A DNA stretch of 64,000 nt from Mesostigma viride (Eukaryota > Streptophyta > Mesostigmatophyceae > Mesostigmatales > Mesostigmataceae). The position numbers and the translations under genes were made by a program. Each line of letters begins with the position of its first letter. The first letter of the stretch is position 1. Under the pieces are notes generated by a model. It saw only the letters and a program-made list of their open reading frames with translations. It was not told where the DNA came from and ran no database searches. The stretch is from contig RPFO01000276.1 in the NCBI GenBank assembly GCA_009746045.1, positions 1,822,619-1,886,618 on the forward strand, given 5' to 3'. Shown here one piece after another: positions 1 to 33,600 of the stretch.

Positions 1-726
1 GAGCGAAAAGACCTGCCTTTGGGTCGAGCGAAAAGACCTGCCTTTGGGTCGAGCGAAAAGACCTGCCTTTGGGTCAAGCGAAAAGACCTGCCTTTGGGTC
101 GAGCGAAAAGACCTGCCTTTGGGTTGAGCGAAAAGACCTGCCTTTGGGTCGAGCGAAAAGACCTGCCTTTGGGTCGAGCGAAAAGACCTGCCTTTGGGTT
201 GAGCGAAAAGACCTGCCTTTGGATTGACGAAAAGACCTGCCTTTGGGTTGAGCGAAAAGGCCTGCCGTTGGGTTGAGCGAAAAGACCTGCCTTTGGGTCG
301 ATGAAAAGACCTGCCTTTGGGTTGAGCAAAAAGGCCTGCCTTTGGGTTGAGCGAAAAGACCTGCCTTTGGGTTGAGCGAAAAGACCTGCCTTTGGGTCGA
401 TGAAAAGACCTGCCTTTGGGTTGAGCAAAAAGGCCTGCCTTTGGGTTGAGCGAAAAGACCTGCCTTTGGGTTGAGCGAAAAGACCTGCCTTTGGGTCGAC
501 GAAAAGACCTGCCTTTGGGTTGGGCGAAAAGACCTGCCTTTGGGGTTGGGCGAAAAGACCTGCCTTTGGGTTGGGCGAAAAGACCTGCCTTTGGGTTGGG
601 CGAAAAGACCTGCCTTTGGGGTTGGGCGAAAAGACCTGCCTTTGGGTTGAGCGAAAAGACCTGCCTTTGGGTAAGACCTGCCTTTGGGTTGGGCGAAAAG
701 ACCTGCCTTGGGGTTGAGCTAAAGAC
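1..726. repeat. Minisatellite of about 25 bp filling the dynein intron after exon 17
   Basis: About 29 copies of GAGCGAAAAGACCTGCCTTT + GGGT(C/T), with variants, run from the window edge to the exon 17 donor. Read on the minus strand each unit is CTCAACCCAAAGGCAG followed by gtcttttcg, which is the exon end CTCAACCCCAAGGCAG|gtcttt with one or two changes. The array therefore repeats the exon/intron junction. Short ORFs across it have no coding support. Confidence 0.95.
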
Positions 727-973
727 CTGCCTTGGGGTTGAGCGCGCGGAGCGTGGTCTTGAGGCCGCGCGCGCTCATGGCGGACGCCAGCACCTGCAGC
801 GCGCACGACTTGCCGCCACCCGGCGCCCCGAGCACGAACACACAGTGCCGCAGCTCCAGCAGCTCCCCCAGCTGGACCACCTTGAGCACGAACGCCGGCT
901 CAGGCTGCAGGCCCTTCTCCTTGCACACGCGCGCGATGGTGGCCTCCCAATCGGGATTGCGGCGGCGGCCCGC
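727..973 (-). CDS. ODA11: ODA alpha exon 17: AAA2 Walker A
   Basis: The acceptor is cacccccag|GCGGGC and the donor AAGGCAG|gtcttt. It encodes [27 protein letters not shown] (AAA2 P-loop) and LRALNPKA, where dyneins have the N-P-K-A motif. It ends in phase 1. The remaining motor (AAA3-AAA6, stalk) is beyond the left edge. Confidence 0.93.
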
Positions 974-30600: not shown

Positions 30601-33600
30601 CCACCCCTCAATCACATTACACGTGCAGCTGCCAAGCATTTAGTAAGTGCCATGGATGCCATAATGCGAAGTCACACGAGATTCGTGACATGGTGGCATT
30701 ACGGGACTCACAAAAATGCGGACTGCTGTTGCGGGTCTAGAAGATGTTGAATGCAGCTGTAATACATTGCTCATAAAACGCATATGCGAGGTACTTGTGT
30801 GAAGCTCCACATTGACATTCCATTCATGTTTCGCATCCCCTCCGCCCACACCTACCATCTCTCACACCTTGCTCCCCGCCCCGCCTCATCCTGTCACTAT
30901 GCCACATTTGTCTCATCACGCTGCTGCTCTTCCGCCCCCCACCAACACCCGTCGCCTGTCACCAGCGGCAACCTTAACATGCGCGGCCGGCTGGCCTCAT
31001 ATGCCATCACGGGTGCGTACGCCGGCATCATCTGGCTGCTCAACCAGGTGGGCGAGCGCATCGCCCTCGCGGCCACACGGCGCGGGGGCCACGTGACATT
31101 GGCCAGTGCAGACGCCAACCTTGCCGTGACCGCGCTGTTGCTGCGCTCACTCGTCACCTTTGCCTCCCTGTTCTACTACGCGTACGGCGAGCGCGATGTC
31201 GACCGCACCGCCGAGCAGCTGGCCGCCATCCTCATCGTGGGCGAGTTGCTGGACCTGGCGGTGCTCTACGCATGGCCAGCGTTCTCCGCGCGGCAACGCA
31301 GGAACCGAGCCAGGGGGTGGAGGGGGGCGGCGGACGGCCAGGGGCTGGGCGCGAGCAGGAAAGCGCCGGCCTCCCATTGGGTGGGCAGCAACGGGCACGA
31401 GGCGGCCCGGAGCAGCTGGCGGGGCAATGCCAATGAGGCGGGGGGGGACGACGAGGAGACGCGGGGGCTCATGGTGGCAGGGTCCCAGCCAGGGACACCG
31501 GCGGCCAGCGGGCCGCTGGGCCTACCCTACCCGCCGAAAGCTCCTCCCACGAGTGTAAGTTTTTCACCCCTACACCTAGGCCTACTCGTAAACAAGGATG
31601 CCGGGTGGCGTGCTTTTGTGCGTGCTTTTGTTTTGCCTGCCTTGTCTCACACAATTACGTTGTAGCTGCTTTCTTGTTCCTGCTCCTGTTCCCTTCGAGT
31701 CCTGTTGCCCTGCATTCACGCGCCATAATGCCGGCCACCAGGTAGAGCTGCAGCTAGAGCTTGACGTGGCCAGCTTCTGCCTGCCCGCTACTAACGAACG
31801 CACTATACCACCTCATGCCCTGGGTGAGCGCACCGCATGCTACTGACCTCAGGGCCCACCTCCTGCGTGTTCAGAACAGCCGGCAACAATTTGCCCCACA
31901 CCCACATTTTCCTGCGTAATGTGTGCGTCAGTAGGCTCCTCCGTCGTAACAGAAGCATGGCTGGTATAACTAATATTTGACGTACAATTTAGATCCATGC
32001 TACGGTTCCCCTGAGCCCCCCGCCGCCCGCCCCCCCGTGCCTCCCCCCCTACCCTCGTGTCACCCACCCAGCTGGCCATGGCGGTGCTCAAGAGTAACGC
32101 GTCGGGGTTCGCCCACCCCGCCACACCCGTGGCGTCGCCGATGGCCCGGGAACCCCTGCTGCCGTCGCCCGCATCGGCGGTAAGGGGGATCCCACGCTGT
32201 GCATGAGCATGGCATGCTGCCACACATGAGGATTCAGTCTCTGGGTGGGCTCCAAGAGGTGCCAAAAACGTTTAACCTCACGTATCTTACCAGCTATCGC
32301 GTGCTCAGTGCACGGCCAGTAGCGGTGCGGGAATTCTTGAAAGGTGGCTGTGTCTGCGCTCCGTCCATTCAATTTACTTTTTCGGGTGGCTCGTTTGCAG
32401 TGGCAAGGTTTGCATGCCTGCAGCCCAGAATAGGGATGCTTGGTGGAGATGCTGTGCCACGCGAGCACTGGTCACTGGGTCTACTTCCCATCCCCTCTTG
32501 TTCAACTCCACTGCCTGCTGGCTGCTGGCTGTCCGCACACATTCACCTGAAGCCCTGTTAACTCCTGGCTTTCTTGCCCCGGTCACGATGCAGCCCCCTG
32601 TTCACCCCTCCCGCCTGGTTGTATCCCCCGCCTGTAATTCTGATTGCTGGCTAACGCAATTCACCCCCCCCCCCATTATGGACCCCATCCCTGGATTGCC
32701 AGGCCCAGGATGCGCCACCAGCAAGTGAGCTGCCCCTGCAGGGTGTGTCGAGCGACAGCGGCGCTAGTGAGGACGTGGTGCAGCGCAGCCACAGCCACAC
32801 GCTGGAGCTGGCACGCGCCGTGGTGCTGGTAGGTCGCGTCGGGGTGTTCTCATAAACTGCGCAGTGGTGCTGGTAGGTGCTGTTGGTACATCCTGCGCGT
32901 GTGGGCGGGTGGGCAGGGTGAGAATCCCTGGCTATGTTAGCCGCTGCTGGCATAGAAAAAAAGAAAGACCTTCATGCTATGACTCACGCAGAAGTTTTCT
33001 GTTCTCATTATTAACCAACCTTCAGGATCTCTGTAGCGGTGTTCTCTTTGGGAAGCATAGGAAAGTTAAGTAGGGCGATTTTGCTGTAGACGCCAACTCT
33101 AAGTAAATGGTAAGCACCCAGCTGGCATGAAATGATGCTGCACATGCTCGTTGACTAGTAAAAGGAAGACCTTACATGATAGCTGGTCTCGTCTTCAGCC
33201 CAGTCTTAGTGCCAGTGTATTGCTGGCAGGAGCAGGTGGCATTACATCGCAGAGCACAAGCCTCAAGTGGTTGGCTCAAGGTGATGAGACCTCGATGGGA
33301 TACGTAGGCCCATTTATGTTTGAGGGTTAGCTGGAAAAGGGCATCGTGCAATCACAAGCTCAGACGCCACTAGCGGCCGTGCTGATGATGTCTACTGGTT
33401 CCAATTATGGTTACGAGATGGTCCTGTGATGACCATGGGATGGTCATGTGTTTGTCATCGTCACGTGATGGTCATTGTGATCTGCTTCTGACCGGCTCTC
33501 ATAATATGCGGCATGCTCTTGCACATTTCCGACCCCGCTCCCCCCCTCTTCCCCAGTTTGGCCTGCTGACCATGTTCGGCGCTGTGTGGCCGCTCGCCCC

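Follow-up and report, generated by a model that had tools for sequence, protein, structure and literature searches.

Tandem copies of the donor junction at the start of introns in Mesostigma viride

Seven introns and their repeated junctions

In a 64,000-nucleotide stretch of the Mesostigma viride genome (assembly GCA_009746045.1, contig RPFO01000276.1, positions 1,822,619 to 1,886,618 of the forward strand; hereafter the window), seven introns begin with downstream copies of their own exon-end/donor junction. They belong to two genes: on the minus strand, one for an outer-arm dynein heavy chain of the alpha kind whose N-terminal part is a kelch region, and on the plus strand, an ankyrin/anoctamin gene (match to Pfam Anoctamin, 8.8e-53). 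We modeled the exons of both with a small purpose-built hidden Markov model (HMM) and by eye. The observed patterns suggest that introns can grow by repeated copying of their own 5' border while the protein stayed unchanged. We think it probable that the arrays are donor-seeded tandem repeats, in which a duplication across the donor was tolerated and then grew as a minisatellite.

The seven introns had been named beforehand, in an earlier note made from the letters of the window, and the junction test took in every intron of the models. The 40 bases round each donor were aligned to at most 500 bases of its own intron, acceptors were treated likewise upstream, and each test was accompanied by 200 dinucleotide shuffles. 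At a score of at least 28, 7/33 donors passed and none of the 32 acceptors did (Fisher P = 0.006). The passing donors were precisely those named (726, 2425, 7053, 8190, 9213, 25331 and 32829), with scores of 28 to 55, z values of 5.6 to 15.2, and alignments that all span the junction. The acceptors scored 11 to 23 and the remaining 26 donors 12 to 22. The script carried three cuts, 28 among them, and a cut of 24 yields the same split; by shuffle p <= 0.05, the counts are 10/33 donors and 3/32 acceptors (P = 0.035). Four introns of the models are less certain (35141, 36430, 36856, and 16298, the last of 1388 bases).

Tandem Repeats Finder listed the arrays at 726, 8190, 9213 and 25331 as head-to-tail units of about 10-100 bases, that is, as minisatellites; donors 2425, 7053 and 32829, with two or three clear copies each, were absent from its list (Table 1). 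The 726 array, spaced mostly at 25 bases, extends to the window edge. Its unit, CGCTCAACCC(C/A)AAGGCAG|GTCTTT (the vertical line marks the exon-intron border), holds 18 exon bases with the codons for NPKA, of which PK is conserved in the alignment to Protein Data Bank (PDB) chain 6zyw_A, and the donor 9-mer CAG|GTCTTT is exact in 24 of the 28 further copies aligned gap-free. The unit at 9213, GGAGGACAACCAG|GTGGG, has 13 exon bases with the codons for EDNQ; its junction is present in 14 copies including the real one, the last of which stops exactly at the exon-end CAG, without GT. More decayed are the units at 8190, about 24 bases round GTGCAG| with a higher-order period of 76 and 12 exon bases in the best copy, where the donor dinucleotide is AT in 10 and GT in 4 of 14 further copies. 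Donor 25331 has at least five junction copies including the real one; four further copies match at least 15/24 bases, and the best contains 22 exon bases. The best copy at 2425 has 8 exon bases, with decayed units between the copies by eye, and that at 7053 up to 14.

Across the window and the outside cases described below, units contain 8 to 22 exon bases in 11/12 cases and 39 in one; the range of 8 to 22 might point to a preferred exon length but is compatible with chance breakpoints. The periods reported by Tandem Repeats Finder, 99 bases at 726 and 76 at 8190, suggest amplification of several units at once. Arrays occupy only the 5' part of those introns with both ends seen. AG|GT, to which the earlier note had drawn attention in several units, occurs at 726, 8190, 9213 and 25331 and is missing at the other three, leaving it a feature of only 4/7 donors.

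Table 1. Junction arrays, the exons that they adjoin, and donor cases found outside the window
Feature	Position	Strand	Basis
Array, donor 726: 30 junction copies including the real one	1..744	-	Tandem Repeats Finder, junction test
Junction copies, donor 2425 (ATCACG|GTAAG), at +24 and +141; 3 including the real one	2265..2433	-	Junction test
Donor 7053: two copies of GAGCCAGG|GTGGGTG-like junction, 31 bases apart	7012..7067	-	Junction test
Decayed array, donor 8190: about 15 junction copies including the real one	7740..8202	-	Tandem Repeats Finder, junction test
Array, donor 9213: 13 units, the first of 28 bases, twelve of 36	8753..9226	-	Tandem Repeats Finder, junction test
Decayed array, donor 25331: GAACATCAAG|GTGGGTCGAGA-like units of about 20 bases	25309..25490	+	Tandem Repeats Finder, junction test
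Donor 32829: GTGGTGCTG|GTAGGT in two copies at a spacing of 44 bases, with 14 exon bases	32815..32879	+	Junction test
Dynein exon, P-loop region, C-terminal end ALNPKA	727..973	-	HMM model, protein alignment
Dynein exon, end RPVTVIT	2426..2695	-	HMM model, protein alignment
Dynein exon, end CTEPG	7054..7181	-	HMM model, reading, protein alignment
Dynein exon, end LEILFVQ	8191..8346	-	HMM model, protein alignment
Dynein exon, end TLEDNQ	9214..9486	-	HMM model, protein alignment
Ankyrin-repeat exon of ankyrin/anoctamin gene	25139..25330	+	HMM model, reading
Anoctamin exon, end ELARAVVL; next exon continues in frame with FGLLTMF	32703..32828	+	HMM model, alignment
Outside donor case: kinase exon ending GETGS			Pfam PF07714, 2.4e-5
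Outside donor case: PP2C gene	L028 5045 (C2)		PP2C_2, 1.4e-9
Outside donor cases: DUF4471 gene, two donors	one at joined block 183277		Pfam, 6.8e-70
Outside donor case: low-molecular-weight phosphatase-like exon, 28-base unit in 15 copies			No Pfam match

Donors compared with other positions, in and beyond the window

The rival that survives best holds that these arrays are the ordinary minisatellite load of a repeat-rich genome and overlap donors by chance; we regard it as unlikely. Positions away from donors do pass the same cut. A sliding test along introns, with array ends set by hand and the frame-keeping GC donor 24102 of the anoctamin gene in place of the GT at 24106 used in the junction test, gave 60/1251 positions in array-free introns and 9/256 beyond arrays, or 69/1507 interior positions (4.6%). 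With arrays left in, 23/310 random interior positions passed, as did 36/440 (8.2%) of random positions across all sequence, window and outside sample together. Against ordinary load, the window donors exceed not only the acceptors but also the interiors (P = 0.0006, a guide only because neighboring positions are not independent), the random interior positions (P = 0.016) and the random positions throughout (P = 0.022). Donors pass 2.6 to 4.6 times as often as the controls, a moderate excess. A donor-like motif as the cause was rejected, non-donor copies of [CA]AG|GT[GA][GAC]G being rarely repeated (1/135, with donor arrays and three simple-repeat stretches left out).

Several observations weigh against the idea that donors seed the arrays. 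The motif control is weak, because just 14/33 donors match the motif; two of these 14 have arrays, as against 1/135 of the non-donor copies (P = 0.023). Two window acceptors reach p <= 0.015, with scores of 22 and 23. Moreover, a junction copy stays detectable for longer, its exon side being held fixed, and this slower decay is a neutral bias that speaks for ordinary load. Further support for ordinary load comes from the same assembly beyond the window, in a sample of twenty-eight 10 kb stretches (about 214 kb non-N and about 66 kb N) in which HMM-predicted junctions were scanned for junction-spanning matches scoring at least 26. Here 6/65 predicted donors and 4/69 predicted acceptors passed (P = 0.33), with no clear polarity; one more donor and two more acceptors reached 26 without spanning the junction. 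One of the four outside acceptors is real: an array in the DUF4471 gene (score 41, C1 about 5,183,400, joined block 183409, minus strand) consists of decayed copies of the acceptor and exon start, upstream of the exon YKDKDD. Two others are simple-repeat pseudo open reading frames (ORFs), and the last is a repeat within an uncertain ORF.

Five of the six outside donors lie in recognizable or likely genes, and the sixth in a simple-repeat pseudo-ORF. We take the DUF4471 gene to be DNAAF3, and the phosphatase-like exon presumably encodes a low-molecular-weight phosphatase, judging by its motif. With junctions set by hand in these genes, 5/9 donors and 1/10 acceptors score at least 28, a donor rate that is inflated because three of the four genes were noticed through their arrays. 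HMM-predicted junctions inside the window, at the cut of 26, gave 5/35 donors and 0/37 acceptors, and window and outside sample combined gave 11/100 and 4/106 (P = 0.041). The genome-wide donor excess, on which the earlier note had made its idea depend, holds in the window; in the raw count of the outside sample, donors and acceptors do not differ significantly. The 10 kb stretch round the PP2C gene (L028, C2:5,000,001-5,010,000) carries 12 minisatellites, about four times the window density, which again fits ordinary load.

Source of the copies and choice of donor

Protein alignments bear on which way the copying ran. The dynein model joins 11 exons (11094 to 727) into 1052 amino acids without a stop. 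Its best PDB match was 7kzm_A (outer-arm alpha heavy chain, 810 bits, E = 3e-242), followed by 6zyw_A (807) and DNAH17 chain 9fqr_I4 (796), three nearly equal scores; we take 7kzm_A to be from Chlamydomonas and 6zyw_A from Tetrahymena. At 9213 the copied exon bases encode EDNQ; 7kzm_A has the same four residues and 6zyw_A has EDHQ, and because of this conservation the direction appears to be from exon into intron. Since the best copies contain coding bases, the coding copy is likely the source of the array units.

The alignment to 7kzm_A is gap-free across donors 9213, 8190, 7053 and 2425, and that to 6zyw_A ends one residue short of donor 726. Donor 32829 is crossed gap-free by the alignment to ANO6 (8bc0_A), and donor 25331 is consistent with ankyrin-repeat spacing by reading only. 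Translation that ran on beyond the first donor would reach a stop at +5 (726), +6 (2425) and +7 (7053), and between +24 and +141 for the remaining four. Given these gap-free alignments and the stops beyond, the first donor is probably the one used in splicing. At 726 the real donor may instead be a GC donor (AAG|GCAGGT) that reading places four bases farther upstream. In mammalian tests that offer two donors of equal strength, preference tends to fall on the intron-proximal one, which is the opposite of what protein conservation demands at these arrays. An effect of the arrays on splice-site choice, as the earlier note had raised, is plausible.

In the explanation that we favor, a short tandem duplication (copy spacing mostly 20 to about 110 bases) would straddle the exon-intron border and so place a copy of the exon end and of the donor inside the intron. 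With the first donor still spliced, mRNA and protein would be unaltered, and the duplication would survive as nearly neutral because the first donor and the exons are intact. Some pairs would expand to minisatellites of 13 to 30 units, perhaps by slippage or unequal exchange, and others would decay. Acceptor choice tends to fall on the first AG that follows the branch point. A duplication on the acceptor side would thus lengthen the mRNA in more cases and hence be removed more often by selection, which could account for the donor/acceptor polarity without a special mutation process. The outcome would be lengthening of the intron from its 5' end, not the birth of an intron. A stronger version, in which tandem duplication in this lineage has a genuine hot spot at the 5' splice junction, introns lengthen mainly at the donor end by copying their own border, and a strong first-donor rule lets the spliceosome tolerate up to about 30 near-identical competing donors, seems to us doubtful.

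Far less probable is a selected splicing device, whereby the extra donors would help to bring U1 to weak donors or would steer transcripts into non-productive splicing. By a matrix built from 25 donors, the two weakest of the 33 donors are 726 (0.8) and 8190 (1.4), both with long arrays, and all others reach at least 3.1; this coincidence was noticed after the fact. The retention of the exact donor 9-mer in most aligned 726 copies would also suit such a device. Yet five of the seven array donors score like the rest, and AT replaces GT in most further copies at 8190 and in one each at 25331, in DNAAF3 (183277) and in PP2C.

More generally, AT often stands in place of the donor GT in decayed junction copies (8190, 25331, joined block 183277 and L028 5045). 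Removal of decoy donors by selection is possibly responsible; because copies within an array are not independent, however, the G to A change at +1 supports no conclusion on this.

Intron gain and comparison with known systems

The earlier note had left a choice between intron gain by tandem duplication of AGGT-containing sequence and donor-seeded minisatellite growth; our results support the latter and not the former. In the Rogers model, one copy reportedly supplies the donor and the next copy the acceptor, so that here many stages of gain by duplication of an AGGT-containing exon segment would be visible. AG|GT at 4/7 donors and exon sequence within the repeats would agree with this. Nevertheless, none of the 32 window acceptors lies inside a copy of a donor segment, and in the nine array introns with an acceptor available, the donor is no more like its own acceptor than unrelated pairs are like each other (scores 9 to 14, against a mean of 11.0 and sd of 2.2 for cross pairs), which argues against an origin of these introns from the arrays; the arrays are also confined to the 5' part. 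We therefore hold intron gain to be highly improbable and contradicted wherever the acceptor is known, a judgment that does not extend to 726, whose acceptor lies beyond the window. Human introns are said to have arisen from tandem arrays carrying splice signals (Zhuo et al. in 2007); there the arrays reportedly become introns, whereas here they stand at the intron start.

An introner-like mobile element inserted in many introns would explain why several introns of one genome are affected, but can practically be dismissed, because the units share no sequence and their words are absent elsewhere in the sequence examined. Short donor-like words aside, the units of the 12 arrays are unrelated (top score of any pair 22, without a shuffled control), and no 16-base word from the 10 units of at least 18 bases was found outside its own intron in the window and sampled stretches. 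The same results bear out the earlier proposal that the arrays arose independently, with the words of 10/12 confined to their own intron.

A GC-AG intron in the anoctamin gene (24102-24542, plus strand; CAG|GCAAGT), assigned by frame and without an array, is a separate case. Its donor scores 19 against its own acceptor, the top of 32 introns, with GGCAAGT at both ends. This end-to-end likeness might be as expected of an intron made by duplication.

In a survey of plants and green algae, tandem-repeat density is highest in Chlamydomonas and Volvox introns and U-shaped along the intron, raised at both ends (PMC3887541). The arrays described here likewise lie near an intron end; however, their units contain the exon end and donor, whereas that survey, as far as its accessible text goes, describes density along the intron. 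Intron gain by tandem duplication is reported in single cases, in the potato RdRp gene (PMC4974935) and in Drosophila (PMC2891723). The duplication there too sets coding sequence at an exon-intron border, in potato crossing an existing one, but a new intron results; in M. viride an existing intron lengthens and the acceptor lies outside the array. Like introners (PMC9860276), the process is recurrent and alters many introns of one genome; unlike introners, which are copies of one element, the units are unrelated. Our literature search found no account of recurrent donor-spanning arrays, which is weak evidence of novelty given incomplete coverage of subscription journals.

If true genome-wide, the pattern would give introns a simple, directional way of becoming longer, and would provide natural tests of how a spliceosome chooses among many consecutive donors that are nearly identical. 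Such arrays would also be an oriented record of duplication, since coding constraint keeps the exon copy fixed.

Other features of the window and sampled stretches

A PDB search with the frame at 11782-15111 gave no match, an Rfam scan of the window gave nothing at the gathering cut, and a search of viral and genome contig collections for related loci found no relative. The window is rich in transposons at 38200-60000, where an rve-like integrase frame occurs at 44643-47342 (Pfam 3.2e-5, under the curated cut-off) together with copies of a protein reading DDDLTPAQQQQRRDLWPEYLRHKQDPQKPKVYW, also present in stretch L023 and the C1 block. Long simple repeats are (ACACACAG)n at 18865-20057 (1.2 kb) and (CCAT)n at 38223-38859 (0.6 kb). 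Among the sampled stretches, G+C is 0.49 to 0.52 in L026, L027 (C3) and L028 (C2), as against 0.54 to 0.56 in the others. Stretches L002-L004 (C1:5,000,001-5,022,600) contain predicted capsid-like and DNA-methyltransferase-like frames followed by a long run of N, which, by motif reading only, looks like an integrated giant-virus element.

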